DNA of 64,000 nt, from NCBI GenBank assembly GCA_963693305.1, contig OY855915.1, positions 14,727,840 through 14,791,839 on the forward strand, given 5' to 3'. The DNA comes from Meandrina meandrites. Taxonomy: Eukaryota > Cnidaria > Anthozoa > Scleractinia > Meandrinidae. Below the pieces are notes generated by a model, which made no database searches, had not been told where the DNA came from, and saw only the letters and a program-made list of their open reading frames with translations. The translations under genes were made by a program, and so were the position numbers. Shown one piece after another: positions 27,544-64,000 of this stretch (within the stretch, counting starts at the first letter, position 1; each line of letters begins with the position of its first letter).

Positions 27544-28827
27544 TCCATCAAATATTTTTCGCGCACACGATTGGTCTGAACACGTCACGTGATGCAGCCA
27601 AACCCACTAAGTGATATTCCCCAGTTTTAGAACTTTGCGATCTACGTTTGCGCATTTAGTTTTTATCCCGAGCAAATTATTAAAATAAATAAAACTAAAC
27701 ATTTTGAACAGACTAATAATATTTTGAGCGCTTACAGAATTTCTTTGGCATTTAAAAGCTTTGAGAAAAGGTCTCCCAAAATGCGGCCTTGTAAAAAAAT
27801 ATTTATTTATACATAAACAATAGCACAGAAGTTCAAACAACCACAATGACTCTTGGACAAAGTTGGGTAAAAGGGCATGATACAGTGAAACAGTAAAACA
27901 ACCACAAAAAGGTCTAGTGTAAAAAGAAAGAACAAATAATAATTTTGTCTGGACAGAATCACACTGTTGAGCGTTGGGTTCAGTTTTTTTATAAGAATCA
28001 TTCAGATTCAATTCAACCATTTAACAGTCTCAGTTGTCCCGTTTGTTGTCACAGTTTATTGATCATGTTGAGAGGGAAAATGACATGTTGCTTGGTGGGA
28101 ATGACAATGTTCTGTCTGGGAAACAGCATATTGTCAAAGATTTTGTTGATGATTATATGCACGACACCAGAAAATAAAGGTTTCCTTGGAGATAAAAGAG
28201 ACTGCTCTTGCTTTCAGTCCACGTTTTCACAATGCGCTTTTTTCCTGGTGGAACATTGTTATTCCAACCTAGCAACATAATCAGTCAAAGGTGACATCAA
28301 ATTCGACTGTTAAACACTCAGCCTGACTCAATTTTCTGTAAGGAAATCAAGTTTGTTGTTCTTGTTGAAGCATAGCACAATGTCATTTGAGTCCATATGG
28401 TGTTACTCTGTGCATTGGTTTCTGACTGCTGATTCCTTATGTTTTTCCATGTTATTCACTGATGCAACCAGTGTGTAACAAAAAAAAAACACCTGGTTGA
28501 TTCTCAAGTGATGACTTCTCTTTCTTCCCTCCCTTTGATTTTGTCCTTGATCTTATGGCTTGTGTACACCAGGCTAATGTCTGCATCACCAAGTTGTCTG
28601 TGTATTATGTTTGCTGATTTGTGGTCTTTGAAAGGGAGCATGCTTATGATTGCATATTCTGTCACGCGAATCCCCAGAATCTATTGATCACTCAATAAAT
28701 TACTAAATTCAAATCATACCAAAGCATTTATGAAATTGCCATTGATTATTAAATCCTTGTGATACTACAAAATAATATATAAATGTCTTGTTAAATTTAT
28801 TGTTTGGTTTTAAAGTGACATGGGGAA

Positions 28828-34786: not shown

Positions 34787-34926
34787 GGAGCAAAATGGCA
34801 ACTGTTGTTGACAAGCAATCCAATTTATACGCAAGATTTGAATTTTAATTTGGCACTTATTTTTGGAGGACTTTATTGGCAAACAAAAACAAGCATGCAC
34901 ATGCTTGAATACAAAACTATTTTGTG

Positions 34927-35348
34927 AAAGGTAGCTATACTGAGAAAACGTTGAAGTGTACAGACGAGAAGAGCTATTAATAAAAGGAAGTGTGGATTGC
35001 AGGAAAGAACGATATCATCGACGAGCCGATTATTGGGAAAACATGAAAAAACTTAGTTTTATGCTAGTAAACCCTCAGAGTTGAGCAACAAAAAAATCAA
35101 TGTTTGGTGTAGTCTTAGCTTTGTTTCCATTGTTCACGGTGTGAAGAACTTGTGCAACATGTCAGTGTCAACCACACACGTTATCGTACGTGTTATGAAT
35201 TTCCACAACATGTAAATTATTTGCATGCCCTCTCTGTAAAATCATGTTTTTGTCACCTCATAATTGACCAATCAGGAGCCAGTCTAAACTTTCTCAAAAG
35301 GCTGCGATAATGTTTTTGCCGTTTCAAAGTCATATTTTTCAACCACGA
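34927..35348. other. non-coding interval, nothing recognised
   Basis: Intergenic stretch between the Dmrt-like gene, which reads leftward, and the transposase remnant, which reads rightward. No motif recognised. Confidence 0.35.
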
Positions 35349-45473: not shown

Positions 45474-45629
45474 ATGGAAGGAGTTCTCCTGAAGTATAAG
45501 TCTAAGCATGTTGCGGAGGTAATTTGTAGGAATGGGAGTGTGTTTCTTATAGAAGTCTTCGTATGCTATGCATACAGTGTTTATCCCTTCCTCTTGGGGG
45601 ATATTGGTGTACAGGCTGGTAACATCCAT
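45474..45629 (-). pseudogene. Penelope-like RT, C-terminal part, cut at array edge
   Basis: Begins MDVTSLYTNIPQEEGI as in the intact copies but ends after about 52 residues (QENSFHF), where the sequence changes to the duplicated host flank. The RT B, C (YIDD) and D motifs are therefore missing. It belongs to the leftmost, most diverged monomer. Confidence 0.85.
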
Positions 45630-45634
45630 TGAAA

Positions 45635-46381
45635 CTAGAATCGTATTTTGTTGGACTTTGTCCTTTCTATAAAGTTAATGAAATCTGTGGTATCTTTGAG
45701 GTACGATTTTTGCGCTTTGGCAATAGGCTGGAGGACGTGGTCTATAAATGATGATATACGTTCTGTCGGACCTTCACAGCCCGAAATTATTGGTCTTCCA
45801 GTTAGAGTCGGTTTGTGAATCTTTGTTAGTGTGTAATACACTGGTATGCGCGGTGGGTTAGGTGTTTGAGAAAGCCATTCTTTGGTCTTTGCGTCTATGT
45901 GATTTCCTAAATGGAGTTCATTAATTAAATCTTTGACCTTTTGTGAGGTCTCCTTCACCATTGGTGTTTCTAGGGGCATGTAGTTCTTTCTATCATCAAG
46001 TTGAGTTTGGCCCTCTGTTATCTTATCTTGTTTGTTCATAATGACGGTTGTGGATCCTTTGTCTGCCTTTTTGATAACTATTTCTGTGTTAGATTTCAAA
46101 TCTTTCAGTGCTATACGTTCTTGGTAAGGCAGGTTATTTCGTGGCTTAGTAATCTCGATCTCAGCGAGTTGTACTTTAATTTCTTCTAAATATGTTTCAA
46201 GTGCAACTGATGGTTGAACTGGAGGTTCCCAGTTCGATTTAACGTGGAAGGGGTGCTGTTCACTATCTTTGTTGTTAAAAATGTATCGGAGACGCATTCG
46301 TCTGGCGAAATGTTTGAAGTCTCGAAGCAGTTGTTGCCTGACGCGATTCTTATCTGGAATCGGTGTTTGGATAAATTTCAT
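45635..46381 (-). pseudogene. Penelope-like RT, N-terminal part, leftmost monomer
   Basis: A 248-codon frame. After FARRMRLRYIF come KKADKGSTTVIMNK (residues about 104-117), then YTLTKIHKPTLTGRPIIS (183-200), the fingers-side motifs preceding the catalytic A motif in Penelope-type reverse transcriptases. The frame ends ERTKSNKIRF-stop. A one-base deletion after ERTK moves the natural continuation (LVSMDVTSLYTNIP) into the other frame. Upstream, THETNLLSRGL is still in frame before the first ATG, so the true N-terminus continues into the preceding coding segment, broken by another shift at about 46385-46430. Confidence 0.8.
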
Positions 46382-46429
46382 CAGACCCCTTGATAGTAAA
46401 TTTGTCTCGTGAGTTTAAATTTTGCAATT

Positions 46430-47221
46430 TTAGAGGTTTCTTATGTACCTCTGGTTCAACTCGGTGTTTTTTCTTCTAATGTTTAATGTCTTGTTGCTTT
46501 TACGTTCTCGGTGTTTATTGTTTACGATTTTGCGCTTTTCTTTCTCCCTCCCTTTTCCTGAACAGTCAGAAAATACACAGGGATAAGATTCACTCTTTTT
46601 ATTGTGTAAAGTTTTCATCATTTCTTCCACTTTTTTGATCTTGTCTGTCAGTTCGGTGGCTAAAGCTATTACATTCTCAGTGCGAGTTGGCCTTTCTGGA
46701 CGTGGCCTGTTCTTAACTACATCAGGATTGTTCGTTTTCTTCTCTCTGGTAGTGTTCGGTCTATGCTCAACTTTACTGAGCTTTATCTTGTTGCTTTCCA
46801 CGATTCTGTAGTGGTAGCGTGTGAGCGCTCCGATAAGTTTTTGTTCTGCTTCTCTCCGGATAAGCTTGATGTCACTTTTGAAGTCATCATCCGGCACTAT
46901 GTTCACTTTTACGTTGTAGTGCAGATCTTTTGGGCACGTTTTCTTTGTTCTGTGTGCTTCCAGTTTCTCTATGGAGGCTTTGGATTTTTCAACTTTCCTC
47001 CCCAGAGATGGGGCGCTGTAGCGATTGTTCAGGCGAAATCTTGTCTGAGGGATGTTTTCCTTGCTACCTTCTGTGTGGCGGCGCTTTCGGAGAGGCGACC
47101 GTTGGCCACTTTTAAATTTGCCATCTGATGCTAACAGCAATTCCTCGGACGGTTCTTGTCCGTTTTGGTGTGATGTAGATGGGCCTGACAAGAAGCCGTC
47201 TTCATTTAGTGTTTGGTTCAT
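46430..47221 (-). CDS. Penelope-like element N-terminal region, intact copy
   Basis: A 263-codon frame from MNQTLNEDGFLSGPSTSHQN to RYIRNL-stop. It is rich in Lys, Arg, Asn and Ser, with a middle stretch NIVPDDDFKSDIKLIRREAE and a C-terminal Arg/Lys-rich tail (RERKSNKTLNIRRKN), compatible with RNA binding. No GIY-YIG motif or zinc knuckle is seen. In the relatives of this element the segment is probably the N-terminus of one long RT protein. Only this leftmost copy is unbroken: the others lack one T near their equivalent of 47052. The ATG lies 16 nt downstream of the ribozyme cleavage site. Confidence 0.7.
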   Translation of the reverse strand: MNQTLNEDGFLSGPSTSHQNGQEPSEELLLASDGKFKSGQRSPLRKRRHTEGSKENIPQTRFRLNNRYSAPSLGRKVEKSKASIEKLEAHRTKKTCPKDLHYNVKVNIVPDDDFKSDIKLIRREAEQKLIGALTRYHYRIVESNKIKLSKVEHRPNTTREKKTNNPDVVKNRPRPERPTRTENVIALATELTDKIKKVEEMMKTLHNKKSESYPCVFSDCSGKGREKEKRKIVNNKHRERKSNKTLNIRRKNTELNQRYIRNL

Positions 47222-47231
47222 GTTCTATCTC

Positions 47232-47278
47232 AAACAAGACTGCAGTTTCGTTCTGTTAGCGGAACTCTTCAGTTGTTT
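47232..47278 (-). ncRNA. type I hammerhead ribozyme, variant copy
   Basis: Minus strand: stem I strand AAACAA, core CTGAAGA, stem II GTTC...GAAC (four pairs, larger loop because of a C/A mismatch), GAAA, a two-pair stem III (AC-TGCA-GT), C, then TTGTTT closing stem I. All core bases match the CUGANGA...GAAA...UH consensus. Cleavage is expected between 47238 and 47237. Confidence 0.88.
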
Positions 47279-47462
47279 CTATGTTGAGTGGCTTAGGAAT
47301 GGCAGTGATAACTGATAACATTCCGTGGCAGATGCATGCTTCCACTGCTTTTATATCTGTTGTTAGGATCGAAAATAAAGGCTCACCATTGGTTGTATGG
47401 ATTAGCCAATGCAAGACTTTGGCTTTCGATCCGAATGAAGTTGTGTTTCTTGTTAAGGTCAT
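47256..47462 (-). CDS. 68-codon frame in the monomer 3' region, variant
   Basis: MTLTRNTTSFGSKAKVLHWL to NIETTEEFR-stop. It lies between the RT stop and the ribozyme and partly overlaps the ribozyme. It differs from the other copies at several residues (TTDIKAVEACICHGM against TKDIKAVEACISHGM). No family recognised. It may be structural 3' UTR rather than protein-coding. Confidence 0.25.
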   Translation of the reverse strand: MTLTRNTTSFGSKAKVLHWLIHTTNGEPLFSILTTDIKAVEACICHGMLSVITAIPKPLNIETTEEFR

Positions 47463-47700
47463 TTTTCTGCTTTAAAGGCGTAAGAAACTTTTTTCTCAAG
47501 CTGAGAAAATGCTGAGGGGTAGTATAGTCGTCAGTCTAAATGACTTGCTAGTCCATTTCTTTGTTATTTCCCTCTTAAAACTATTGCAGACTGTTGAATG
47601 GTGCTCTAGCACGTAGCAGAACGGAGCACTGTCTAAAAATATCGCAATGATTTAAAAAATGATTGACAGGCCTAGCAGGAGTCCCGCTGTTCTTTGACCT

Positions 47701-48636
47701 TTAGAGTTTAGCTCTAACAAGTATGTCTTTCAGAGATTTTCCTCTCCTGTAGGAGATGAAAGGAGGGTCTCTGTATATTTCTCTAAGCAGAGGTTGGTCT
47801 TGGATTAAATGCCATTTGCTCATTAAAATGCTTTTAAGATTGGGCACTGATGGATTATATTGTGTGACAAAAGGCAATAATCTCTTTTGCAAATTTGGTT
47901 TCTGTTGTAGTGCCGACTTCCTGTTTTTAAATTCGACTTCTGCGAGGACTTTGTTGACCAGTTTCTCTGGATAGCCTCGAACACGCAAATTTGATCTGAA
48001 ATTTTTGATCTTTTCTTCAAAACTTGTTTTTGAAGAGTTTGTTCTCAGAAGCCTAAGTGCTTCACCTTTGATAAAACCTTTTTTCACACCTGGAGCGTGA
48101 CAGGAAGAGAAATGCGTGTATTGAAATTTCTCAGTCGGCTTGAAGTGTGTGCAGATATCAAAGATTGAATCTTTGTTAAATCTCTCGCCTTTGAAGAGAG
48201 TAGTGTCTAGGAAATTTATTTCCTTCTCTGATATTTCAGCCGTGAATTTAATGGTAGGATGGTGCCTGTTTGCTTCTGATATAAACTGATCTATTTCCTC
48301 TCTGTTTGTGTTCCACAATGAGAACACGTCATCTATGTATCTCTTCCACTCAATGGGTTTTATCTTGCTTTTACCGATAATTTGAGATTCTACTGCGGAC
48401 ATAAAAATGTTCGCGAAAGCAACTGCCATTTTTGTCCCCATTGCGGTACCATGGGTTTGGAGATAGTTCCTTCCGTTGAAATGGAAGGAGTTCTCCTGAA
48501 GTATAAGTCTAAGCATGTTGCGGAGTGAATTTGTAGGAATGGGAGTGTTGTTCTTATAGAAGTCTTCGTATGCTATGCATACAGTGTTTATCCCTTCCTC
48601 TTGGGGGATATTGGTGTACAGGCTGGTAACATCCAT
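47701..48636 (-). pseudogene. Penelope-like RT, C-terminal part, monomer 1
   Basis: A 311-codon frame. Motif A is MDVTSLYTNIP with catalytic D2; motif B is GTAMGTKMAVAFANIFM (63-79); motif C is YIDD (100-103); motif D is INFLDT (140-145). A thumb with THFSSCHAPGVKKGFIKGEA follows, and the protein ends RRGKSLKDILVRAKL-stop. In endonuclease-bearing Penelope elements a zinc motif and GIY-YIG domain follow this point; here there is a stop and about 230 nt without either. The in-frame leader NTILVS upstream of M1 shows that the real protein starts earlier, beyond a frameshift. Confidence 0.85.
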
Positions 48637-48641
48637 TGAAA

Positions 48642-49388
48642 CTAGAATTGTATTTTGTTGGACTTTGTCCTTTCTATAAAGTTAATGAAATCTGTGGTAT
48701 CTTTGAGGTACGATTTTTGCGCTTTGGCAATAGGCTGGAGGATGTGGTCTATAAATGATGATATACGTTCTGTCGGACCTTCACAGCCCGAAATTATTGG
48801 TCTTCCAGTTAGAGTCGGTTTGTGAATCTTTGTTAGTGTGTAATACACTGGTATGCGCGGTGGGTTAGGTGTTTGAGAAAGCCATTCTTTGGTCTTTGCG
48901 TCTATGTGATTTCCTAAATGGAGTTCATTAATTAAATCTTTGACCTTTTGTGAGGTCTCCTTCACCATTGGTGTTTCTAGGGGCATGTAGTTCTTTCTAT
49001 CATCAAGTTGAGTTTGGCCCTCTGTTATCTTATCTTGTTTGTTCATAATGACGGTTGTGGATCCTTTGTCTGCCTTTTTGATAACTATTTCTGTGTTAGA
49101 TTTCAAATCTTTCAGTGCTATACGTTCTTGGTAAGGCAGGTTATTTCGTGGCTTAGTAATCTCGATCTCAGCGAGTTGTACTTTAATTTCTTCTAAATAT
49201 GTTTCAAGTGCAACTGATGGTTGAACTGGAGGTTCCCAGTTCGATTTAACGTGGAAGGGGTGCTTTTCACCATCTTTGTTGTTAAAAATGTATCGGAGAC
49301 GCATTCGTCTGGCGAAATGTTTGAAGTCTCGAAGCAGTTGTTGCCTGACGCGATTCTTATCTGGAATCGGTGTTTGGATAAATTTCAT
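48642..49388 (-). pseudogene. Penelope-like RT, N-terminal part, monomer 1
   Basis: Same 248-codon frame as the leftmost copy, with KDGEKHPF in place of KDSEQHPF and ending NKIQF-stop. The frame break after ERTK is identical. Confidence 0.8.
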
Positions 49389-49436
49389 CAGACCCCTTGA
49401 TAGTAAATTTGTCTCGTGAGTTTAAATTTTGAAATT

Positions 49437-50227
49437 TTAGAGGTTTTTTATGTACCTCTGGTTCAACTCAGTGTTTTTTCTTCTAATGTTTAATGTCTTG
49501 TTGCTTTTACGTTCTCGGTGTTTATTGTTTACGATTTTGCGCTTTTCTTTCTCCCTCCCTTTTCCTGAACAGTCAGAAAATACACAGGGATAAGATTCAC
49601 TCTTTTTATAGTCTAAAGTTTTCATCATTTGTTTCAGTTTTTTGATCTTGTCTGTCAGTTCGGTGGCTAAAGCTATTACATTCTCAGTGCGAGTTGGCCT
49701 TTCTGGACGTGGCCTGTTCTTAACTACATCAGGATTGTTCGTTTTCTTCTCTCTGGTAGTGTTCGGTCTATGCTCAACTTTACTGAGCTTTATCTTGTTG
49801 CTTTCCACGATTCTGTAGTGGTAGCGTGTGAGCGCTCCGATAAGTTTTTGTTCTGCTTCTCTCCGGATAAGCTTGATGTCACTTTTGAAGTCATCATCCG
49901 GCACTATGTTCACTCTTACGTTGTAGCACAGATCTTTTGGGCACGTTTTCTTTGTTCTGTGTGCTTCCAGTTGCTCTATGGAGGCTTTGGATTTTTCAAC
50001 TTTCCTCCCCAGAGATGGGGCGCTGTAGCGATTGTTCAGGCGAAATCTTTTCTGGGGATGTTTCCCTTGCTACTATCTGTGTGGCGGCGCTTTCGGAGAG
50101 GCGACCGTTGGCCACTTTTAAATTTGCCATCTGATGCTAACAGCAATTCCTCGGACGGTTCTTGTCCGTTTTGGTGTGATGTAGATGGGCCTGACAAGAA
50201 GCCGTCTTCATTTAGTGTTTGGTTCAT
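49437..50227 (-). pseudogene. Penelope-like N-terminal region, monomer 1
   Basis: Starts MNQTLNEDGFLSGPSTS at 50227 and runs 63 codons to 50036, ending GNIPRKDFA-stop because one T is missing compared with the leftmost copy. The correct frame resumes and is open to 49437 (NIVPDDDFKSD to RYIKNL). It keeps KEKRKIV like the leftmost copy, where later monomers have KEKLKIV. Confidence 0.75.
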
Positions 50228-50237
50228 GTTCTATCTC

Positions 50238-50284
50238 AAACAAGACTGCAGTTTCGTTCCTTTAGCGGAACTCTTCAGTTGTTT
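50238..50284 (-). ncRNA. type I hammerhead ribozyme, monomer 1 leader
   Basis: Stem I AAACAA/TTGTTT, CTGAAGA, stem II GTTCC-GCTAAA-GGAAC (five pairs), GAAA, mini stem III AC-TGCA-GT, cleavage after C at 50244. The downstream product begins 16 nt before the ATG at 50227. Confidence 0.92.
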
Positions 50285-50468
50285 CTATGTTAAGTGTCTT
50301 AGGAATGGCAGTGATAACTGATAACATTCCGTGGGAGATGCAGGCTTCCACTGCTTTTATATCTTTTGTTAGGATCGAAAATAAAGGCTCACCATTGGTT
50401 GTATGGATTAGCCAATGCAAGACTTTGGCTTTCGATCCGAATGAAGTTGTGTTTCTTGTTAAGGTCAT
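50262..50468 (-). CDS. 68-codon frame in the 3' region of monomer 2
   Basis: MTLTRNTTSFGSKAKVLHWL to EEFR-stop. Identical copies lie at 53268-53474, 56274-56480, 59280-59486 and 62286-62492. Function unknown and coding status unproven. Confidence 0.25.
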   Translation of the reverse strand: MTLTRNTTSFGSKAKVLHWLIHTTNGEPLFSILTKDIKAVEACISHGMLSVITAIPKTLNIETTEEFR

Positions 50469-50706
50469 TTTTCTGCTTTAAAGGCGTAAGAAACTTTTTT
50501 CTCAAGCTGAGAAAATGCTGAGGGGTAGTATAGTCGTCAGTCTAAATGACTTGCTAGTCCATTTCTTTGTTATTTCCCTCTTAAAACTATTGCAGACTGT
50601 TGAATGGTGCTCTAGCACGTAGCAGAACGGAGCACTGTCTAAAAATATCGCAATGATTTAAAAAATGATTGACAGGCCTAGCAGGAGTCCCGCTGTTCTT
50701 TGACCT

Positions 50707-51642
50707 TTAGAGTTTAGCTCTAACAAGTATGTCTTTCAGAGATTTTCCTCTCCTGTAGGAGATGAAAGGAGGGTCTCTGTATATTTCTCTAAGCAGAGGT
50801 TGGTCTTGGATTAAATGCCATTTGCTCATTAAAATGCTTTTAAGATTGGGCACTGATGGATTATATTGTGTGACAAAAGGCAATAATCTCTTTTGCAAAT
50901 TTGGTTTCTGTTGTAGTGCCGACTTCCTGTTTTTAAATTCGACTTCTGCGAGGACTTTGTTGACCAGTTTCTCTGGATAGCCTCGAACACGCAAATTTGA
51001 TCTGAAATTTTTGATCTTTTCTTCAAAACTTGTTTTTGAAGAGTTTGTTCTCAGAAGCCTAAGTGCTTCACCTTTGATAAAACCTTTTTTCACACCTGGA
51101 GCGTGACAGGAAGAGAAATGCGTGTATTGAAATTTCTCAGTCGGCTTGAAGTGTGTGCAGATATCAAAGATTGAATCTTTGTTAAATCTCTCGCCTTTGA
51201 AGAGAGTAGTGTCTAGGAAATTTATTTCCTTCTCTGATATTTCAGCCGTGAATTTAATGGTAGGATGGTGCCTGTTTGCTTCTGATATAAACTGATCTAT
51301 TTCCTCTCTGTTTGTGTTCCACAATGAGAACACGTCATCTATGTATCTCTTCCACTCAATGGGTTTTATCTTGCTTTTACCGATAATTTGAGATTCTACT
51401 GCGGACATAAAAATGTTCGCGAAAGCAACTGCCATTTTTGTCCCCATTGCGGTACCATGGGTTTGGAGATAGTTCCTTCCGTTGAAATGGAAGGAGTTCT
51501 CCTGAAGTATAAGTCTAAGCATGTTGCGGAGTGAATTTGTAGGAATGGGAGTGTTGTTCTTATAGAAGTCTTCGTATGCTATGCATACAGTGTTTATCCC
51601 TTCCTCTTGGGGGATATTGGTGTACAGGCTGGTAACATCCAT
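50707..51642 (-). pseudogene. Penelope-like RT, C-terminal part, monomer 2
   Basis: The 311-residue product is identical to that at 47701-48636, with D2, GTAMG, YIDD and FLDT all present. Confidence 0.85.
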
Positions 51643-51647
51643 TGAAA

Positions 51648-52394
51648 CTAGAATGGTATTTTGTTGGACTTTGTCCTTTCTATAAAGTTAATGAAATCTG
51701 TGGTATCTTTGAGGTACGATTTTTGCGCTTTGGCAATAGGCTGGAGGATGTGGTCTATAAATGATGATATACGTTCTGTCGGACCTTCACAGCCCGAAAT
51801 TATTGGTCTTCCAGTTAGAGTCGGTTTGTGAATCTTTGTTAGTGTGTAATACACTGGTATGCGCGGTGGGTTAGGTGTTTGAGAAAGCCATTCTTTGGTC
51901 TTTGCGTCTATGTGATTTCCTAAATGGAGTTCATTAATTAAATCTTTGACCTTTTGTGAGGTCTCCTTCACCATTGGTGTTTCTAGGGGCATGTAGTTCT
52001 TTCTATCATCAAGTTGAGTTTGGCCCTCTGTTATCTTATCTTGTTTGTTCATAATGACGGTTGTGGATCCTTTGTCTGCCTTTTTGATAACTATTTCTGT
52101 GTTAGATTTCAAATCTTTCAGTGCTATACGTTCTTGGTAAGGCAGGTTATTTCGTGGCTTAGTAATCTCGATCTCAGCGAGTTGTACTTTAATTTCTTCT
52201 AAATATGTTTCAAGTGCAACTGATGGTTGAACTGGAGGTTCCCAGTTCGATTTAACGTGGAAGGGGTGCTTTTCACCATCTTTGTTGTTAAAAATGTATC
52301 GGAGACGCATTCGTCTGGCGAAATGTTTGAAGTCTCGAAGCAGTTGTTGCCTGACGCGATTCTTATCTGGAATCGGTGTTTGGATAAATTTCAT
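51648..52394 (-). pseudogene. Penelope-like RT, N-terminal part, monomer 2
   Basis: As monomer 1 but ending NKIPF-stop, a variant shared with the next two units. Confidence 0.8.
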
Positions 52395-52442
52395 CAGACC
52401 CCTTGATAGTAAATTTGTCTCGTGAGTTTAAATTTTGAAATT

Positions 52443-53233
52443 TTAGAGGTTTTTTATGTACCTCTGGTTCAACTCAGTGTTTTTTCTTCTAATGTTTAAT
52501 GTCTTGTTGCTTTTACGTTCTCGGTGTTTATTGTTTACGATTTTGAGCTTTTCTTTCTCCCTCCCTTTTCCTGAACAGTCAGAAAATACACAGGGATAAG
52601 ATTCACTCTTTTTATAGTCTAAAGTTTTCATCATTTGTTTCAGTTTTTTGATCTTGTCTGTCAGTTCGGTGGCTAAAGCTATTACATTCTCAGTGCGAGT
52701 TGGCCTTTCTGGACGTGGCCTGTTCTTAACTACATCAGGATTGTTCGTTTTCTTCTCTCTGGTAGTGTTCGGTCTATGCTCAACTTTACTGAGCTTTATC
52801 TTGTTGCTTTCCACGATTCTGTAGTGGTAGCGTGTGAGCGCTCCGATAAGTTTTTGTTCTGCTTCTCTCCGGATAAGCTTGATGTCACTTTTGAAGTCAT
52901 CATCCGGCACTATGTTCACTCTTACGTTGTAGCACAGATCTTTTGGGCACGTTTTCTTTGTTCTGTGTGCTTCCAGTTGCTCTATGGAGGCTTTGGATTT
53001 TTCAACTTTCCTCCCCAGAGATGGGGCGCTGTAGCGATTGTTCAGGCGAAATCTTTTCTGGGGATGTTTCCCTTGCTACTATCTGTGTGGCGGCGCTTTC
53101 GGAGAGGCGACCGTTGGCCACTTTTAAATTTGCCATCTGATGCTAACAGCAATTCCTCGGACGGTTCTTGTCCGTTTTGGTGTGATGTAGATGGGCCTGA
53201 CAAGAAGCCGTCTTCATTTAGTGTTTGGTTCAT
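52443..53233 (-). pseudogene. Penelope-like N-terminal region, monomer 2
   Basis: Frames 53233-53042 and 52919-52443, split by the one-T deletion. First unit with KEKLKIV. Confidence 0.75.
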
Positions 53234-53243
53234 GTTCTATCTC

Positions 53244-53290
53244 AAACAAGACTGCAGTTTCGTTCCTTTAGCGGAACTCTTCAGTTGTTT
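53244..53290 (-). ncRNA. type I hammerhead ribozyme, monomer 2 leader
   Basis: Sequence identical to 50238-50284. Cleavage expected after 53250. Confidence 0.92.
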
Positions 53291-53712
53291 CTATGTTAAG
53301 TGTCTTAGGAATGGCAGTGATAACTGATAACATTCCGTGGGAGATGCAGGCTTCCACTGCTTTTATATCTTTTGTTAGGATCGAAAATAAAGGCTCACCA
53401 TTGGTTGTATGGATTAGCCAATGCAAGACTTTGGCTTTCGATCCGAATGAAGTTGTGTTTCTTGTTAAGGTCATTTTTCTGCTTTAAAGGCGTAAGAAAC
53501 TTTTTTCTCAAGCTGAGAAAATGCTGAGGGGTAGTATAGTCGTCAGTCTAAATGACTTGCTAGTCCATTTCTTTGTTATTTCCCTCTTAAAACTATTGCA
53601 GACTGTTGAATGGTGCTCTAGCACGTAGCAGAACGGAGCACTGTCTAAAAATATCGCAATGATTTAAAAAATGATTGACAGGCCTAGCAGGAGTCCCGCT
53701 GTTCTTTGACCT

Positions 53713-54648
53713 TTAGAGTTTAGCTCTAACAAGTATGTCTTTCAGAGATTTTCCTCTCCTGTAGGAGATGAAAGGAGGGTCTCTGTATATTTCTCTAAGC
53801 AGAGGTTGGTCTTGGATTAAATGCCATTTGCTCATTAAAATGCTTTTAAGATTGGGCACTGATGGATTATATTGTGTGACAAAAGGCAATAATCTCTTTT
53901 GCAAATTTGGTTTCTGTTGTAGTGCCGACTTCCTGTTTTTAAATTCGACTTCTGCGAGGACTTTGTTGACCAGTTTCTCTGGATAGCCTCGAACACGCAA
54001 ATTTGATCTGAAATTTTTGATCTTTTCTTCAAAACTTGTTTTTGAAGAGTTTGTTCTCAGAAGCCTAAGTGCTTCACCTTTGATAAAACCTTTTTTCACA
54101 CCTGGAGCGTGACAGGAAGAGAAATGCGTGTATTGAAATTTCTCAGTCGGCTTGAAGTGTGTGCAGATATCAAAGATTGAATCTTTGTTAAATCTCTCGC
54201 CTTTGAAGAGAGTAGTGTCTAGGAAATTTATTTCCTTCTCTGATATTTCAGCCGTGAATTTAATGGTAGGATGGTGCCTGTTTGCTTCTGATATAAACTG
54301 ATCTATTTCCTCTCTGTTTGTGTTCCACAATGAGAACACGTCATCTATGTATCTCTTCCACTCAATGGGTTTTATCTTGCTTTTACCGATAATTTGAGAT
54401 TCTACTGCGGACATAAAAATGTTCGCGAAAGCAACTGCCATTTTTGTCCCCATTGCGGTACCATGGGTTTGGAGATAGTTCCTTCCGTTGAAATGGAAGG
54501 AGTTCTCCTGAAGTATAAGTCTAAGCATGTTGCGGAGTGAATTTGTAGGAATGGGAGTGTTGTTCTTATAGAAGTCTTCGTATGCTATGCATACAGTGTT
54601 TATCCCTTCCTCTTGGGGGATATTGGTGTACAGGCTGGTAACATCCAT
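53713..54648 (-). pseudogene. Penelope-like RT, C-terminal part, monomer 3
   Basis: The 311-residue product is identical to that of monomer 2. All catalytic residues are kept. Confidence 0.85.
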
Positions 54649-54653
54649 TGAAA

Positions 54654-55400
54654 CTAGAATGGTATTTTGTTGGACTTTGTCCTTTCTATAAAGTTAATGA
54701 AATCTGTGGTATCTTTGAGGTACGATTTTTGCGCTTTGGCAATAGGCTGGAGGATGTGGTCTATAAATGATGATATACGTTCTGTCGGACCTTCACAGCC
54801 CGAAATTATTGGTCTTCCAGTTAGAGTCGGTTTGTGAATCTTTGTTAGTGTGTAATACACTGGTATGCGCGGTGGGTTAGGTGTTTGAGAAAGCCATTCT
54901 TTGGTCTTTGCGTCTATGTGATTTCCTAAATGGAGTTCATTAATTAAATCTTTGACCTTTTGTGAGGTCTCCTTCACCATTGGTGTTTCTAGGGGCATGT
55001 AGTTCTTTCTATCATCAAGTTGAGTTTGGCCCTCTGTTATCTTATCTTGTTTGTTCATAATGACGGTTGTGGATCCTTTGTCTGCCTTTTTGATAACTAT
55101 TTCTGTGTTAGATTTCAAATCTTTCAGTGCTATACGTTCTTGGTAAGGCAGGTTATTTCGTGGCTTAGTAATCTCGATCTCAGCGAGTTGTACTTTAATT
55201 TCTTCTAAATATGTTTCAAGTGCAACTGATGGTTGAACTGGAGGTTCCCAGTTCGATTTAACGTGGAAGGGGTGCTTTTCACCATCTTTGTTGTTAAAAA
55301 TGTATCGGAGACGCATTCGTCTGGCGAAATGTTTGAAGTCTCGAAGCAGTTGTTGCCTGACGCGATTCTTATCTGGAATCGGTGTTTGGATAAATTTCAT
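54654..55400 (-). pseudogene. Penelope-like RT, N-terminal part, monomer 3
   Basis: Ends NKIPF-stop. Same ancestral frameshift. Confidence 0.8.
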
Positions 55401-55448
55401 CAGACCCCTTGATAGTAAATTTGTCTCGTGAGTTTAAATTTTGAAATT

Positions 55449-56239
55449 TTAGAGGTTTTTTATGTACCTCTGGTTCAACTCAGTGTTTTTTCTTCTAATG
55501 TTTAATGTCTTGTTGCTTTTACGTTCTCGGTGTTTATTGTTTACGATTTTGAGCTTTTCTTTCTCCCTCCCTTTTCCTGAACAGTCAGAAAATACACAGG
55601 GATAAGATTCACTCTTTTTATAGTCTAAAGTTTTCATCATTTGTTTCAGTTTTTTGATCTTGTCTGTCAGTTCGGTGGCTAAAGCTATTACATTCTCAGT
55701 GCGAGTTGGCCTTTCTGGACGTGGCCTGTTCTTAACTACATCAGGATTGTTCGTTTTCTTCTCTCTGGTAGTGTTCGGTCTATGCTCAACTTTACTGAGC
55801 TTTATCTTGTTGCTTTCCACGATTCTGTAGTGGTAGCGTGTGAGCGCTCCGATAAGTTTTTGTTCTGCTTCTCTCCGGATAAGCTTGATGTCACTTTTGA
55901 AGTCATCATCCGGCACTATGTTCACTCTTACGTTGTAGCACAGATCTTTTGGGCACGTTTTCTTTGTTCTGTGTGCTTCCAGTTGCTCTATGGAGGCTTT
56001 GGATTTTTCAACTTTCCTCCCCAGAGATGGGGCGCTGTAGCGATTGTTCAGGCGAAATCTTTTCTGGGGATGTTTCCCTTGCTACTATCTGTGTGGCGGC
56101 GCTTTCGGAGAGGCGACCGTTGGCCACTTTTAAATTTGCCATCTGATGCTAACAGCAATTCCTCGGACGGTTCTTGTCCGTTTTGGTGTGATGTAGATGG
56201 GCCTGACAAGAAGCCGTCTTCATTTAGTGTTTGGTTCAT
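55449..56239 (-). pseudogene. Penelope-like N-terminal region, monomer 3
   Basis: Frames 56239-56048 and 55925-55449, split by the shared deletion. Confidence 0.75.
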
Positions 56240-56249
56240 GTTCTATCTC

Positions 56250-56296
56250 AAACAAGACTGCAGTTTCGTTCCTTTAGCGGAACTCTTCAGTTGTTT
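56250..56296 (-). ncRNA. type I hammerhead ribozyme, monomer 3 leader
   Basis: Identical to 50238-50284. Cleavage expected after 56256. Confidence 0.92.
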
Positions 56297-56718
56297 CTAT
56301 GTTAAGTGTCTTAGGAATGGCAGTGATAACTGATAACATTCCGTGGGAGATGCAGGCTTCCACTGCTTTTATATCTTTTGTTAGGATCGAAAATAAAGGC
56401 TCACCATTGGTTGTATGGATTAGCCAATGCAAGACTTTGGCTTTCGATCCGAATGAAGTTGTGTTTCTTGTTAAGGTCATTTTTCTGCTTTAAAGGCGTA
56501 AGAAACTTTTTTCTCAAGCTGAGAAAATGCTGAGGGGTAGTATAGTCGTCAGTCTAAATGACTTGCTAGTCCATTTCTTTGTTATTTCCCTCTTAAAACT
56601 ATTGCAGACTGTTGAATGGTGCTCTAGCACGTAGCAGAACGGAGCACTGTCTAAAAATATCGCAATGATTTAAAAAATGATTGACAGGCCTAGCAGGAGT
56701 CCCGCTGTTCTTTGACCT

Positions 56719-57654
56719 TTAGAGTTTAGCTCTAACAAGTATGTCTTTCAGAGATTTTCCTCTCCTGTAGGAGATGAAAGGAGGGTCTCTGTATATTTCT
56801 CTAAGCAGAGGTTGGTCTTGGATTAAATGCCATTTGCTCATTAAAATGCTTTTAAGATTGGGCTCTGATGGATTATATTGTGTGACAAAAGGCAATAATC
56901 TCTTTTGCAAATTTGGTTTCTGTTGTAGTGCCGACTTCCTGTTTTTAAATTCGACTTCTGCGAGGACTTTGTTGACCAGTTTCTCTGGATAGCCTCGAAC
57001 ACGCAAATTTGATCTGAAATTTTTGATCTTTTCTTCAAAACTTGTTTTTGAAGAGTTTGTTCTCAGAAGCCTAAGTGCTTCACCTTTGATAAAACCTTTT
57101 TTCACACCTGGAGCGTGACAGGAAGAGAAATGCGTGTATTGAAATTTCTCAGTCGGCTTGAAGTGTGTGCAGATATCAAAGATTGAATCTTTGTTAAATC
57201 TCTCGCCTTTGAAGAGAGTAGTGTCTAGGAAATTTATTTCCTTCTCTGATATTTCAGCCGTGAATTTAATGGTAGGATGGTGCCTGTTTGCTTCTGATAT
57301 AAACTGATCTATTTCCTCTCTGTTTGTGTTCCACAATGAGAACACGTCATCTATGTATCTCTTCCACTCAATGGGTTTTATCTTGCTTTTACCGATAATT
57401 TGAGATTCTACTGCGGACATAAAAATGTTCGCGAAAGCAACTGCCATTTTTGTCCCCATTGCGGTACCATGGGTTTGGAGATAGTTCCTTCCGTTGAAAT
57501 GGAAGGAGTTCTCCTGAAGTATAAGTCTAAGCATGTTGCGGAGTGAATTTGTAGGAATGGGAGTGTTGTTCTTATAGAAGTCTTCGTATGCTATGCATAC
57601 AGTGTTTATCCCTTCCTCTTGGGGGATATTGGTGTACAGGCTGGTAACATCCAT
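56719..57654 (-). pseudogene. Penelope-like RT, C-terminal part, monomer 4
   Basis: One private change, NPSEPNLK instead of NPSVPNLK in the thumb. Catalytic motifs intact. Confidence 0.85.
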
Positions 57655-57659
57655 TGAAA

Positions 57660-58406
57660 CTAGAATGGTATTTTGTTGGACTTTGTCCTTTCTATAAAGT
57701 TAATGAAATCTGTGGTATCTTTGAGGTACGATTTTTGCGCTTTGGCAATAGGCTGGAGGATGTGGTCTATAAATGATGATATACGTTCTGTCGGACCTTC
57801 ACAGCCCGAAATTATTGGTCTTCCAGTTAGAGTCGGTTTGTGAATCTTTGTTAGTGTGTAATACACTGGTATGCGCGGTGGGTTAGGTGTTTGAGAAAGC
57901 CATTCTTTGGTCTTTGCGTCTATGTGATTTCCTAAATGGAGTTCATTAATTAAATCTTTGACCTTTTGTGAGGTCTCCTTCACCATTGGTGTTTCTAGGG
58001 GCATGTAGTTCTTTCTATCATCAAGTTGAGTTTGGCCCTCTGTTATCTTATCTTGTTTGTTCATAATGACGGTTGTGGATCCTTTGTCTGCCTTTTTGAT
58101 AACTATTTCTGTGTTAGATTTCAAATCTTTCAGTGCTATACGTTCTTGGTAAGGCAGGTTATTTCGTGGCTTAGTAATCTCGATCTCAGCGAGTTGTACT
58201 TTAATTTCTTCTAAATATGTTTCAAGTGCAACTGATGGTTGAACTGGAGGTTCCCAGTTCGATTTAACGTGGAAGGGGTGCTTTTCACCATCTTTGTTGT
58301 TAAAAATGTATCGGAGACGCATTCGTCTGGCGAAATGTTTGAAGTCTCGAAGCAGTTGTTGCCTGACGCGATTCTTATCTGGAATCGGTGTTTGGATAAA
58401 TTTCAT
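57660..58406 (-). pseudogene. Penelope-like RT, N-terminal part, monomer 4
   Basis: Ends NKIPF-stop. Same ancestral frameshift. Confidence 0.8.
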
Positions 58407-58454
58407 CAGACCCCTTGATAGTAAATTTGTCTCGTGAGTTTAAATTTTGAAATT

Positions 58455-59245
58455 TTAGAGGTTTTTTATGTACCTCTGGTTCAACTCAGTGTTTTTTCTT
58501 CTAATGTTTAATGTCTTGTTGCTTTTACGTTCTCGGTGTTTATTGTTTACGATTTTGAGCTTTTCTTTCTCCCTCCCTTTTCCTGAACAGTCAGAAAATA
58601 CACAGGGATAAGATTCACTCTTTTTATAGTCTAAAGTTTTCATCATTTGTTTCAGTTTTTTGATCTTGTCTGTCAGTTCGGTGGCTAAAGCTATTACATT
58701 CTCAGTGCGAGTTGGCCTTTCTGGACGTGGCCTGTTCTTAACTACATCAGGATTGTTCGTTTTCTTCTCTCTGGTAGTGTTCGGTCTATGCTCAACTTTA
58801 CTGAGCTTTATCTTGTTGCTTTCCACGATTCTGTAGTGGTAGCGTGTGAGCGCTCCGATAAGTTTTTGTTCTGCTTCTCTCCGGATAAGCTTGATGTCAC
58901 TTTTGAAGTCATCATCCGGCACTATGTTCACTCTTACGTTGTAGCACAGATCTTTTGGGCACGTTTTCTTTGTTCTGTGTGCTTCCAGTTGCTCTATGGA
59001 GGCTTTGGATTTTTCAACTTTCCTCCCCAGAGATGGGGCGCTGTAGCGATTGTTCAGGCGAAATCTTTTCTGGGGATGTTTCCCTTGCTACTATCTGTGT
59101 GGCGGCGCTTTCGGAGAGGCGACCGTTGGCCACTTTTAAATTTGCCATCTGATGCTAACAGCAATTCCTCGGACGGTTCTTGTCCGTTTTGGTGTGATGT
59201 AGATGGGCCTGACAAGAAGCCGTCTTCATTTAGTGTTTGGTTCAT
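58455..59245 (-). pseudogene. Penelope-like N-terminal region, monomer 4
   Basis: Frames 59245-59054 and 58931-58455, split by the shared deletion. Confidence 0.75.
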
Positions 59246-59255
59246 GTTCTATCTC

Positions 59256-59302
59256 AAACAAGACTGCAGTTTCGTTCCTTTAGCGGAACTCTTCAGTTGT
59301 TT
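59256..59302 (-). ncRNA. type I hammerhead ribozyme, monomer 4 leader
   Basis: Identical to 50238-50284. Cleavage expected after 59262. Confidence 0.92.
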
Positions 59303-59724
59303 CTATGTTAAGTGTCTTAGGAATGGCAGTGATAACTGATAACATTCCGTGGGAGATGCAGGCTTCCACTGCTTTTATATCTTTTGTTAGGATCGAAAAT
59401 AAAGGCTCACCATTGGTTGTATGGATTAGCCAATGCAAGACTTTGGCTTTCGATCCGAATGAAGTTGTGTTTCTTGTTAAGGTCATTTTTCTGCTTTAAA
59501 GGCGTAAGAAACTTTTTTCTCAAGCTGAGAAAATGCTGAGGGGTAGTATAGTCGTCAGTCTAAATGACTTGCTAGTCCATTTCTTTGTTATTTCCCTCTT
59601 AAAACTATTGCAGACTGTTGAATGGTGCTCTAGCACGTAGCAGAACGGAGCACTGTCTAAAAATATCGCAATGATTTAAAAAATGATTGACAGGCCTAGC
59701 AGGAGTCCCGCTGTTCTTTGACCT

Positions 59725-60660
59725 TTAGAGTTTAGCTCTAACAAGTATGTCTTTCAGAGATTTTCCTCTCCTGTAGGAGATGAAAGGAGGGTCTCTGTAT
59801 ATTTCTCTAAGCAGAGGTTGGTCTTGGATTAAATGCCATTTGCTCATTAAAATGCTTTTAAGATTGGGCACTGATGGATTATATTGTGTGACAAAAGGCA
59901 ATAATCTCTTTTGCAAATTTGGTTTCTGTTGTAGTGCCGACTTCCTGTTTTTAAATTCGACTTCTGCGAGGACTTTGTTGACCAGTTTCTCTGGATAGCC
60001 TCGAACACGCAAATTTGATCTGAAATTTTTGATCTTTTCTTCAAAACTTGTTTTTGAAGAGTTTGTTCTCAGAAGCCTAAGTGCTTCACCTTTGATAAAA
60101 CCTTTTTTCACACCTGGAGCGTGACAGGAAGAGAAATGCGTGTATTGAAATTTCTCAGTCGGCTTGAAGTGTGTGCAGATATCAAAGATTGAATCTTTGT
60201 TAAATCTCTCGCCTTTGAAGAGAGTAGTGTCTAGGAAATTTATTTCCTTCTCTGATATTTCAGCCGTGAATTTAATGGTAGGATGGTGCCTGTTTGTTTC
60301 TGATATAAACTGATCTATTTCCTCTCTGTTTGTGTTCCACAATGAGAACACGTCATCTATGTATCTCTTCCACTCAATGGGTTTTATCTTGCTTTTACCG
60401 ATAATTTGAGATTCTACTGCGGACATAAAAATGTTCGCGAAAGCAACTGCCATTTTTGTCCCCATTGCGGTACCATGGGTTTGGAGATAGTTCCTTCCGT
60501 TGAAATGGAAGGAGTTCTCCTGAAGTATAAGTCTAAGCATGTTGCGGAGTGAATTTGTAGGAATGGGAGTGTTGTTCTTATAGAAGTCTTCGTATGCTAT
60601 GCATACAGTGTTTATCCCTTCCTCTTGGGGGATATTGGTGTACAGGCTGGTAACATCCAT
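59725..60660 (-). pseudogene. Penelope-like RT, C-terminal part, monomer 5
   Basis: One private change, ISETNRHH instead of ISEANRHH. Catalytic motifs intact. Confidence 0.85.
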
Positions 60661-60665
60661 TGAAA

Positions 60666-61412
60666 CTAGAATTGTATTTTGTTGGACTTTGTCCTTTCTA
60701 TAAAGTTAATGAAATCTGTGGTATCTTTGAGGTACGATTTTTGCGCTTTGGCAATAGGCTGGAGGATGTGGTCTATAAATGATGATATACGTTCTGTCGG
60801 ACCTTCACAGCCCGAAATTATTGGTCTTCCAGTTAGAGTCGGTTTGTGAATCTTTGTTAGTGTGTAATACACTGGTATGCGCGGTGGGTTAGGTGTTTGA
60901 GAAAGCCATTCTTTGGTCTTTGCATCTATGTGATTTCCTAAATGGAGTTCATTAATTAAATCTTTGACCTTTTGTGAGGTCTCCTTCACCATTGGTGTTT
61001 CTAGGGGCATGTAGTTCTTTCTATCATCAAGTTGAGTTTGGCCCTCTGTTATCTTATCTTGTTTGTTCATAATGACGGTTGTGGATCCTTTGTCTGCCTT
61101 TTTGATAACTATTTCTGTGTTAGATTTCAAATCTTTCAGTGCTATACGTTCTTGGTAAGGCAGGTTATTTCGTGGCTTAGTAATCTCGATCTCAGCGAGT
61201 TGTACTTTAATTTCTTCTAAATATGTTTCAAGTGCAACTGATGGTTGAACTGGAGGTTCCCAGTTCGATTTAACGTGGAAGGGGTGCTTTTCACCATCTT
61301 TGTTGTTAAAAATGTATCGGAGACGCATTCGTCTGGCGAAATGTTTGAAGTCTCGAAGCAGTTGTTGCCTGACGCGATTCTTATCTGGAATCGGTGTTTG
61401 GATAAATTTCAT
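60666..61412 (-). pseudogene. Penelope-like RT, N-terminal part, monomer 5
   Basis: Ends NKIQF-stop like monomer 1, not NKIPF like its left neighbours, a sign of shuffling of variants between units. Confidence 0.8.
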
Positions 61413-61460
61413 CAGACCCCTTGATAGTAAATTTGTCTCGTGAGTTTAAATTTTGAAATT

Positions 61461-62251
61461 TTAGAGGTTTTTTATGTACCTCTGGTTCAACTCAGTGTTT
61501 TTTCTTCTAATGTTTAATGTCTTGTTGCTTTTACGTTCTCGGTGTTTATTGTTTACGATTTTGAGCTTTTCTTTCTCCCTCCCTTTTCCTGAACAGTCAG
61601 AAACTACACAGGGATAAGATTCACTCTTTTTATAGTCTAAAGTTTTCATCATTTGTTTCAGTTTTTTGATCTTGTCTGTCAGTTCGGTGGCTAAAGCTAT
61701 TACATTCTCAGTGCGAGTTGGCCTTTCTGGACGTGGCCTGTTCTTAACTACATCAGGATTGTTCGTTTTCTTCTCTCTGGTAGTGTTCGGTCTATGCTCA
61801 ACTTTACTGAGCTTTATCTTGTTGCTTTCCACGATTCTGTAGTGGTAGCGTGTGAGCGCTCCGATAAGTTTTTGTTCTGCTTCTCTCCGGATAAGCTTGA
61901 TGTCACTTTTGAAGTCATCATCCGGCACTATGTTCACTCTTACGTTGTAGCACAGATCTTTTGGGCACGTTTTCTTTGTTCTGTGTGCTTCCAGTTGCTC
62001 TATGGAGGCTTTGGATTTTTCAACTTTCCTCCCCAGAGATGGGGCGCTGTAGCGATTGTTCAGGCGAAATCTTTTCTGGGGATGTTTCCCTTGCTACTAT
62101 CTGTGTGGCGGCGCTTTCGGAGAGGCGACCGTTGGCCACTTTTAAATTTGCCATCTGATGCTAACAGCAATTCCTCGGACGGTTCTTGTCCGTTTTGGTG
62201 TGATGTAGATGGGCCTGACAAGAAGCCGTCTTCATTTAGTGTTTGGTTCAT
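61461..62251 (-). pseudogene. Penelope-like N-terminal region, monomer 5
   Basis: Frames 62251-62060 and 61937-61461. Private change CVVSDCSG instead of CVFSDCSG. Confidence 0.75.
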
Positions 62252-62261
62252 GTTCTATCTC

Positions 62262-62308
62262 AAACAAGACTGCAGTTTCGTTCCTTTAGCGGAACTCTTC
62301 AGTTGTTT
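62262..62308 (-). ncRNA. type I hammerhead ribozyme, monomer 5 leader
   Basis: Identical to 50238-50284. Cleavage expected after 62268. Confidence 0.92.
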
Positions 62309-62730
62309 CTATGTTAAGTGTCTTAGGAATGGCAGTGATAACTGATAACATTCCGTGGGAGATGCAGGCTTCCACTGCTTTTATATCTTTTGTTAGGATC
62401 GAAAATAAAGGCTCACCATTGGTTGTATGGATTAGCCAATGCAAGACTTTGGCTTTCGATCCGAATGAAGTTGTGTTTCTTGTTAAGGTCATTTTTCTGC
62501 TTTAAAGGCGTAAGAAACTTTTTTCTCAAGCTGAGAAAATGCTGAGGGGTAGTATAGTCGTCAGTCTAAATGACTTGCTAGTCCATTTCTTTGTTATTTC
62601 CCTCTTAAAACTATTGCAGACTGTTGAATGGTGCTCTAGCACGTAGCAGAACGGAGCACTGTCTAAAAATATCGCAATGATTTAAAAAATGATTGACAGG
62701 CCTAGCAGGAGTCCCGCTGTTCTTTGACCT

Positions 62731-63666
62731 TTAGAGTTTAGCTCTAACAAGTATGTCTTTCAGAGATTTTCCTCTCCTGTAGGAGATGAAAGGAGGGTCT
62801 CTGTATATTTCTCTAAGCAGAGGTTGGTCTTGGATTAAATGCCATTTGCTCATTAAAATGCTTTTAAGATTGGGCACTGATGGATTATATTGTGTGACAA
62901 AAGGCAATAATCTCTTTTGCAAATTTGGTTTCTGTTGTAGTGCCGACTTCCTGTTTTTAAATTCGACTTCTGCGAGGACTTTGTTGACCAGTTTCTCTGG
63001 ATAGCCTCGAACACGCAAATTTGATCTGAAATTTTTGATCTTTTCTTCAAAACTTGTTTTTGAAGAGTTTGTTCTCAGAAGCCTAAGTGCTTCACCTTTG
63101 ATAAAACCTTTTTTCACACCTGGAGCGTGACAGGAAGAGAAATGCGTGTATTGAAATTTCTCAGTCGGCTTGAAGTGTGTGCAGATATCAAAGATTGAAT
63201 CTTTGTTAAATCTCTCGCCTTTGAAGAGAGTAGTGTCTAGGAAATTTATTTCCTTCTCTGATATTTCAGCCGTGAATTTAATGGTAGGATGGTGCCTGTT
63301 TGCTTCTGATATAAACTGATCTATTTCCTCTCTGTTTGTGTTCCACAATGAGAACACGTCATCTATGTATCTCTTCCACTCAATGGGTTTTATCTTGCTT
63401 TTACCGATAATTTGAGATTCTACTGCGGACATAAAAATGTTCGCGAAAGCAACTGCCATTTTTGTCCCCATTGCGGTACCATGGGTTTGGAGATAGTTCC
63501 TTCCGTTGAAATGGAAGGAGTTCTCCTGAAGTATAAGTCTAAGCATGTTGCGGAGTGAATTTGTAGGAATGGGAGTGTTGTTCTTATAGAAGTCTTCGTA
63601 TGCTATGCATACAGTGTTTATCCCTTCCTCTTGGGGGATATTGGTGTACAGGCTGGTAACATCCAT
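62731..63666 (-). pseudogene. Penelope-like RT, C-terminal part, monomer 6
   Basis: The 311-residue product matches monomers 1-3. Catalytic motifs intact. Confidence 0.85.
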
Positions 63667-63671
63667 TGAAA

Positions 63672-64000
63672 CTAGAATTGTATTTTGTTGGACTTTGTCC
63701 TTTCTATAAAGTTAATGAAATCTGTGGTATCTTTGAGGTACGATTTTTGCGCTTTGGCAATAGGCTGGAGGATGTGGTCTATAAATGATGATATACGTTC
63801 TGTCGGACCTTCACAGCCCGAAATTATTGGTCTTCCAGTTAGAGTCGGTTTGTGAATCTTTGTTAGTGTGTAATACACTGGTATGCGCGGTGGGTTAGGT
63901 GTTTGAGAAAGCCATTCTTTGGTCTTTGCGTCTATGTGATTTCCTAAATGGAGTTCATTAATTAAATCTTTGACCTTTTGTGAGGTCTCCTTCACCATTG
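63672..64000 (-). pseudogene. Penelope-like RT, N-terminal part, monomer 6 (partial)
   Basis: Contains YTLTKIHKPTLTGRPIIS and ends NKIQF-stop. The 5' portion lies beyond the window edge, so the array continues. Confidence 0.8.

Follow-up and report, generated by a model that had tools for sequence, protein, structure and literature searches.

Penelope-like elements (PLEs), whose canonical members include Neptune beside Penelope and Poseidon, carry small dimeric hammerhead ribozymes, reportedly described by Cervera and De la Pena in 2014 and by Lunse et al. in 2017. Hammerheads in PLEs, PLEs of axolotl with minimal hammerheads in tandem and more than 6,000 motifs of type I in a single Acropora genome are mentioned in the excerpts cited here (PMC11167929, PMC6155905, PMC7229834, PMC7761336, PMC6431247, PMC3846280, PMC11577847, PMC6466107). 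The small PLE hammerheads are said there to act as dimers and to need a palindromic stem III together with tandem copies (PMC6466107, PMC7761336). The stretch of DNA analysed in this work, the window, comprises 64,000 nucleotides of the coral Meandrina meandrites (C13:14,727,840-14,791,839, in a genome of 551 Mb and 56 contigs) and contains a tandem array of PLE units in which a type I hammerhead is present on the minus strand in six copies, with a period of exactly 3,006 nt. Our reading, to which we give a probability of about 0.8, is that this is a pseudogenised tandem array of a coral PLE which was amplified as DNA and whose living lineage uses paired hammerheads. Like the small dimeric PLE hammerheads, as far as the cited passages describe them, it has a minimal type I motif in tandem PLE units, a palindromic end of stem III and, by prediction, paired cleavage (PMC7761336, PMC6466107). 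Unlike in those systems, the predicted cut in the coral lies 16-42 nt upstream of the ATG, and the cut RNA would therefore keep the whole frame; the array, moreover, looks dead and amplified as DNA.

Three further systems come close. Poseidon of Anolis carolinensis (PAc) is likewise a PLE in tandem units with the hammerhead at the unit start; in the cited part of that study the hammerhead cut in vitro only after addition of the element's protein, and no RNA-seq reads with an end at the cut site were detected (PMC11167929). In contrast to PAc, no endonuclease was seen in the coral element and the cut lies upstream of the start codon. Athena and the Terminons have, as the coral element probably has, a PLE reverse transcriptase (RT) without a GIY-YIG domain, the Terminons together with hammerheads, and are presented in the cited sections as two-ORF (open reading frame) elements of 4-6 kb or as giant telomeric elements (PMC6431247). 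The coral relatives, in contrast, have a single frame of 831-947 amino acids (aa) and the arrays lie mid-contig, by which description they are set apart. Paired repeats of TTAGGG, which we take to be the telomere repeat of the host, occur in none of 39 array units, so the array does not classify as a telomeric PLE. Coprina is presumably another endonuclease-deficient PLE. Metazoan retrozymes, known in corals, have a type I hammerhead in each tandem unit; their units are given in the cited text as non-coding and of about 150-450 bp (PMC7229834), whereas the coral unit measures 3 kb and comes from a coding PLE, which places it outside the retrozymes.

All six window copies have the hammerhead core and three stems, open at stem I, and in a search of 20 kb with the Rfam model RF00163 they scored 34.7-40.0 bits (gathering score 34), with E values of 3.6e-07 for the leftmost copy and 2.1e-05 for the other five. 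With the default Rfam filters on the whole 64 kb, one of the six was reported, namely the leftmost. This copy differs by its weakened stem II from the other five, which are identical. A seventh hammerhead with two altered core positions lies just beyond the window, at 65269-65315 in extended coordinates. Counting the six as independent ribozymes was rejected, all being copies of one motif. Our own covariance model R1 was made from seven natural sequences, two of them from the window, and its high scores there are expected by construction. The initial annotation, made from the letters of the window, had placed six minus-strand hammerheads spaced 3,006 bp in a Penelope-like tandem array and had put the 5' end of the cut RNA 16 nt before the first ATG of the unit, as at 50243 and 53249; spacing, coordinates and ends proved correct, the proposed Rfam covariance check came out positive for every copy, and the assignment to type I and to a Penelope-like array is supported.

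The same motif is found in divergent PLE copies of this genome. For 20 of the 83 genomic matches of a divergent coral PLE protein, mostly full-length matches, the 1-kb upstream piece was taken, and five of the twenty contained a strict hammerhead (L036, L038, L041, L042 and L048); the antisense strands of all twenty and 100 shuffles gave none. Because L041 and L042 are adjacent units in the same tandem locus, the five copies represent four loci. They sit just upstream of the ATG, and some of the divergent hammerheads adjoin open frames of 867-890 aa. R1 adds three pieces, L050 and L051 (variant) and L047 (decayed). L050 and L051 belong to a single PLE subfamily that is more distant; their stem II is shifted and has a bulge, their stem III is a palindrome of 6 nt (ACCGGT), and their hammerhead lies 38 nt from the ATG. 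The piece L043 may start within a hammerhead, and its weak R1 match is cut by the edge of the piece. The end motif was located in seven pieces, and there the distances from cut to ATG were 16, 16, 29, 38, 38, 42 and 42 nt. That the motif keeps the same place in divergent PLE copies supports it independently.

When the structure was named over seven sequences, 98.0% of the cells were paired, and double-sided changes were present in six of 14 pairs (13 cells). None of 500 shuffles matched the observed percentage paired, the double-change cells or the covariation score, and sliding the partners along lowered the pairing to 13-43%. Genome-wide, the core pattern derived from these sequences is matched exactly 59 times (53 of them in the array family), its reversed form not at all. 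At C1:41145556 another natural copy carries stem II in swapped form (GGAAC/GTTCC). Elsewhere in the genome, on the minus strand of C3 (17197065-17205662), eight hammerhead copies with the stem III centre CATG lie 1,218-1,229 nt apart and make up another tandem array. Another of the upstream pieces, L040, carries on its plus strand (593-708) a match to the small nucleolar RNA SNORA69 that has 38 bits where the gathering score is 47.

The strand running from GAA to the cut is self-complementary, with the sequence ACTGCAGT in the array and L048, ACCGCGGT in L036 and L042, and ACTACGTAGT in L038; it has one mismatch in L041, stem III being palindromic in the other four strict copies. One inner pair of stem III is changed on both sides in two of the seven sequences; since this pair would close a loop of 2 nt in a single copy with its 8-nt strand, the change favours pairing between copies. 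A pattern leaving four stem III bases free gave 91 genome-wide matches, mostly copies of a few families with an independent number of about three families plus L038, and two for the reversed pattern. The 4-nt centre is palindromic (TGCA, CGCG or CATG) in 87 of the 91, and in 34 of the 38 that lie outside the eight arrays described below; the exceptions TATG, TGCT, CGCA and AACA have one match apiece. A pattern with a 6-nt centre matched four places and its reversed control two, of which only the previously known locus on C7 is convincing.

As read from the predicted structures, the dimer minimum is a double hammerhead for all five palindromic natural sequences folded (-26.9 kcal/mol for the array). 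In a single copy, by contrast, the hammerhead as drawn is 1.8-6.3 kcal/mol less stable than the predicted minimum. For a single array copy the drawn hammerhead has -5.0 and the minimum -11.3 kcal/mol, with a predicted stem III pair probability of 0.0. The double hammerhead is not the dimer minimum for the non-palindromic L041, nor for the leftmost window copy; this copy excepted, the array hammerheads are by prediction of the dimeric PLE type, with palindromic stem III, tandem copies and a preferred dimer fold. Because the dimer is predicted to fold as a double hammerhead while the single copy is not, cleavage probably needs two copies. The initial annotation had each hammerhead cutting alone, with the array RNA falling into exact 3,006-nt monomers. 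A complete core, complete stems I and II and a drawable 2-bp stem III with tetraloop speak for such cutting, as does the statement, in the cited part of the retrozyme work, that most invertebrate retrozyme hammerheads, said to have a stem III of this kind, cut efficiently as monomers with their loop-loop contacts kept (PMC7229834). Set against the 6.3 kcal/mol that separate the monomer hammerhead from the minimum, the predicted absence of stem III pairing and the reported cutting of small PLE hammerheads as dimers (PMC7761336, PMC6466107, in the passages cited), single-copy cutting is quite improbable; exact monomers from it were rejected, the predicted fold being against them. The paired mechanism is already known; the addition made here is that several coral PLE lineages within a single genome have it.

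Judged by its sequence, the array derives from a coral PLE in which no GIY-YIG endonuclease was seen. The best organism-named matches of its RT frame are in Porites evermanni (84%), P. lutea and Acropora muricata (72%), Montipora foliosa (69%) and Oculina patagonica (67%). Intact relatives are present in the protein database, the approximately 22 longest consisting of the single frame already mentioned, with the reverse transcriptase at its end; of 138 relatives that have the end motif, 130 stop at most 3 aa after it. The relative search accepted lengths of 312-992 aa, which span the 830-842 aa given, in the part cited, for endonuclease-bearing rotifer Penelopes (PMC3846280). A regular expression for a GIY-YIG-like motif matched none of 195 relatives, and the C-terminal GIY-YIG domain of canonical PLEs was not found. 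Among 120 relatives listed, the Pfam entries were PF00078, PF28514 and PF26215 only, the GIY-YIG family being presumably PF01541, and a Pfam scan of seven relatives gave RVT_1 as the sole family above or near its cut-off. An endonuclease hidden in the N-terminal part was rejected, the predicted model of the relative P0141 (mean predicted local distance difference test, pLDDT, 69) having helical N-terminal parts where it is confident and then an RT-like part, with residues 1-67 and some loops modelled with too little confidence for a judgement; an endonuclease downstream of the RT was rejected as well, no such frame being seen. In a Foldseek search with this model the 50 of 797 PDB matches listed were RTs and RNA polymerases and one spliceosome chain, with LINE-1, telomerase and group II-type RTs among them and no GIY-YIG enzyme. 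Sequence searches of PDB gave 0 matches, and relatives sought in viral and prokaryotic contigs were not confirmed. The assignment to PLEs is tentative and draws on the hammerhead position, the tandem units and a general resemblance. In literature searches at title and abstract level, with incomplete coverage, no description of an endonuclease-lacking single-frame coral PLE clade was seen, which is weak evidence of novelty. On the minus strand of C7 (17457405-17463538) four PLE RT segments lie exactly 1,191 bp (397 codons) apart, with 793-aa frames for three of them; the frame there may read through tandem PLE copies.

Table 1. Features of the window (positions counted from its first nucleotide; RF00163 and R1 scores in bits).
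Feature	Position	Strand	Remarks
Hammerhead type I	47232..47278	-	3'-most array unit; stem II weakened, 4 pairs; RF00163 40.0; R1 64.3 (sequence is part of R1)
Hammerhead type I	50238..50284	-	predicted new 5' end 50243; RF00163 34.7; R1 69.7 (sequence is part of R1)
Hammerhead type I	53244..53290	-	predicted new 5' end 53249; RF00163 34.7
Hammerhead type I	56250..56296	-	predicted new 5' end 56255; RF00163 34.7
Hammerhead type I	59256..59302	-	predicted new 5' end 59261; RF00163 34.7
Hammerhead type I	62262..62308	-	predicted new 5' end 62267; RF00163 34.7
N-terminal open frame, 3'-most unit	46430..47221	-	begins at first ATG after the cut; broken in the five full units of the window
Stretch between RT stop codon and next hammerhead, about 420 nt	47279..47700	-	no GIY-YIG-like frame seen (three-frame translation)
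RT C-terminal open frame of one unit, 326 aa	47701..48681	-	YIDD; ends KSLKDILVRAKL; PF00078 RVT_1 32.7 bits, cut-off 29.6; 2,611 homologues
Middle open frame of one unit, 259 aa	48642..49421	-	upstream RT region; matches middle of coral RT proteins by eye
Tandem array of Penelope-like units, period 3,006	45471..64000	-	99.6% self-identity at lag 3,006 over 47-64 kb; limits by blastn
Part of 3'-side (left) outer flank of the array	41060..44140		98.4-98.5% identical over 3,096 nt to 3' flank of three same-contig arrays; blastn

The units are as a rule 3,006-3,009 nt long; a full unit was counted where two hammerheads, each matching with six substitutions or fewer, lay 2.7-3.3 kb apart. Those of the window are 99.7-100% identical to each other and 97.8-98.8% identical to ordinary-length units elsewhere, and 43 of the 49 hammerheads in the fetched stretches are identical. 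On its 3' side the array breaks off within a unit at 45471; on its 5' side the last full unit reaches to 65315, about 1.3 kb beyond the window, and a diverged partial piece follows. Eight arrays lie within 1.9 Mb of the same contig (C13:12.888-14.790 Mb, 47.6-54.6% of its 27.1 Mb), the first five in plus and the last three in minus orientation, with 5, 12, 5, 10, 5, 7, 3 and 6 exact hammerheads (altered copies not counted). Among the other arrays of C13, the 5' breakpoint is unit position 1074 in all four with a fetched 5' edge, and the 3' breakpoint is 1623 in all five with a fetched 3' edge, followed by the same 695-nt piece; two of these five have a common internal deletion in the last unit. 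The outer flanks of the sister arrays are 99.3-99.8% identical. Given the common breakpoints and near-identical flanks, the arrays appear to have been copied together with their surroundings, and the differing unit counts suggest that unequal exchange changed the unit numbers. A related single copy on C7 has no flank in common with the arrays. The long homogeneous array of the initial annotation is thus present as claimed; its homogeneity is best explained by DNA duplication, because the sister arrays have breakpoints and outer flanks in common.

The array looks dead. All 39 fetched full units are frame-broken, with a longest open frame of 326-369 aa, and one frame change is common to all 39; at one arginine position 34 units have TGA and five window units have AGA. 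ORF3 drifts neutrally, its variants being 13 synonymous and 47 not (0.217 observed, 0.238 expected without selection, p 0.76). Since the units are frame-broken, no working reverse transcriptase would be encoded by monomers derived from them.

The array thus looks multiplied as DNA and not made by the ribozyme. The arrays might instead have been made by retrotransposition, with multimeric RNA or hammerhead-cut monomers repeatedly reverse transcribed into one region. PLEs are known, in the cited portions of two studies, in tandems or partial tandems with pseudo-LTRs (long terminal repeats; PMC11167929, PMC3846280), and other PLE copies of this genome are also tandem (C4 spacing 3,162; C14 spacing 3,125), which makes a tandem start by retrotransposition likely; for the later spread, the internal breakpoints and outer flanks of the sister arrays argue for DNA-level copying, and the neutral drift of ORF3 and the frame breaks in every unit stand against it too, so that to retrotransposition as the maker of the arrays we give only a small chance.

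In the surroundings of the array, a DM DNA-binding domain (PF00751, 44 bits) is encoded on the minus strand at 34469-35014, in a doublesex/mab-3-type host gene about 10 kb away. Two copies of one unnamed repeat with very similar translated frames are found at 26794-28280 and 43590-44944; the second adjoins the 3' end of the array and contains, at 44749-44942, inverted arms of 54 nt that are 80% complementary. Two clusters of short CTCGAG-rich tandem repeats lie about 1.3 kb apart (24452-24553 and 25821-25899).

Several results weigh against an amplified array of a lineage with paired hammerheads. Five of the window hammerheads just exceed the Rfam gathering score (34.7 vs 34), and none of the 20 divergent pieces reaches it, the best being L036 with 26.0 bits, followed by L048 with 25.8 bits in RF00163; with another hammerhead family in Rfam, L038 has 23.3 and L047 18.1 bits, and the E values of these four range from 0.015 to 3.9. 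In 12 of the 20 pieces neither the strict scan nor R1 found a hammerhead (L043 counted as none); several of these lack a long open frame, which agrees with 5' truncation and does not prove it. Six double-change pairs are reached by 34 of the 500 shuffles, and the number of further pair types by 473. The scan that chose the strict copies demanded pairing in stems I and II, though not in stem III, and this biases the pair counts towards the structure. With flanking RNA, the stem I pair probabilities of the array are only 0.03-0.33, and folding predictions leave out tertiary contacts. The window array has its own edges on both sides and not the breakpoints of its sisters. Within the arrays the hammerhead is variable at two of 48 positions with 3.4 expected (p 0.58), not significantly more conserved than the rest; nothing therefore shows that the copies were kept for cleavage, and selection on the array's hammerhead was rejected, none being detectable. 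This missing excess of conservation would also suit a hammerhead that is an inert, functionless relic throughout the lineage, as would the dispensability of the lizard PLE hammerhead for insertion in vitro reported in the section cited (PMC11167929). The compensatory changes and the palindromes kept in divergent copies, some of them beside long open frames, tell against a relic, which we regard as highly improbable.

We therefore retain the reading of a dead, DNA-amplified array from a lineage with paired hammerheads, for which the following course may be proposed. In the living lineage every unit would have, at its start in the 5' leader, a small hammerhead of type I. A read-through RNA would span at least two head-to-tail units, in which two hammerhead copies, paired via their palindromic stem III, would assemble into a double hammerhead and be cut, and this paired cutting, which may take place in the animal, would yield unit-length RNAs retaining the whole reading frame. 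In the arrays, unequal crossing over would have altered the unit number and segmental duplication would have copied them along 1.9 Mb.

The feature is real, correctly located and ordinary in kind, with its mechanism corrected to pairs and the origin of its array to DNA duplication. It also gives reason for caution, as a homogeneous ribozyme array is no evidence of RNA-level amplification, segmental duplication explaining the array here. One assembled genome, with a palindromic hammerhead retained shortly before the start codon in several PLE lineages, is a natural case in which the role of PLE hammerheads becomes directly testable, by comparing two-copy with one-copy RNA and the full-frame product with its absence. 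That reef corals have a large live clade of single-frame, endonuclease-free PLEs relying on head-to-tail copies, with paired hammerheads freeing full-frame monomer RNA solely from tandem loci and integration via breaks or nicks, is a wider proposal that we hold to be rather unlikely; if true, the tandem state of such coral PLEs would itself be a step of their life cycle.

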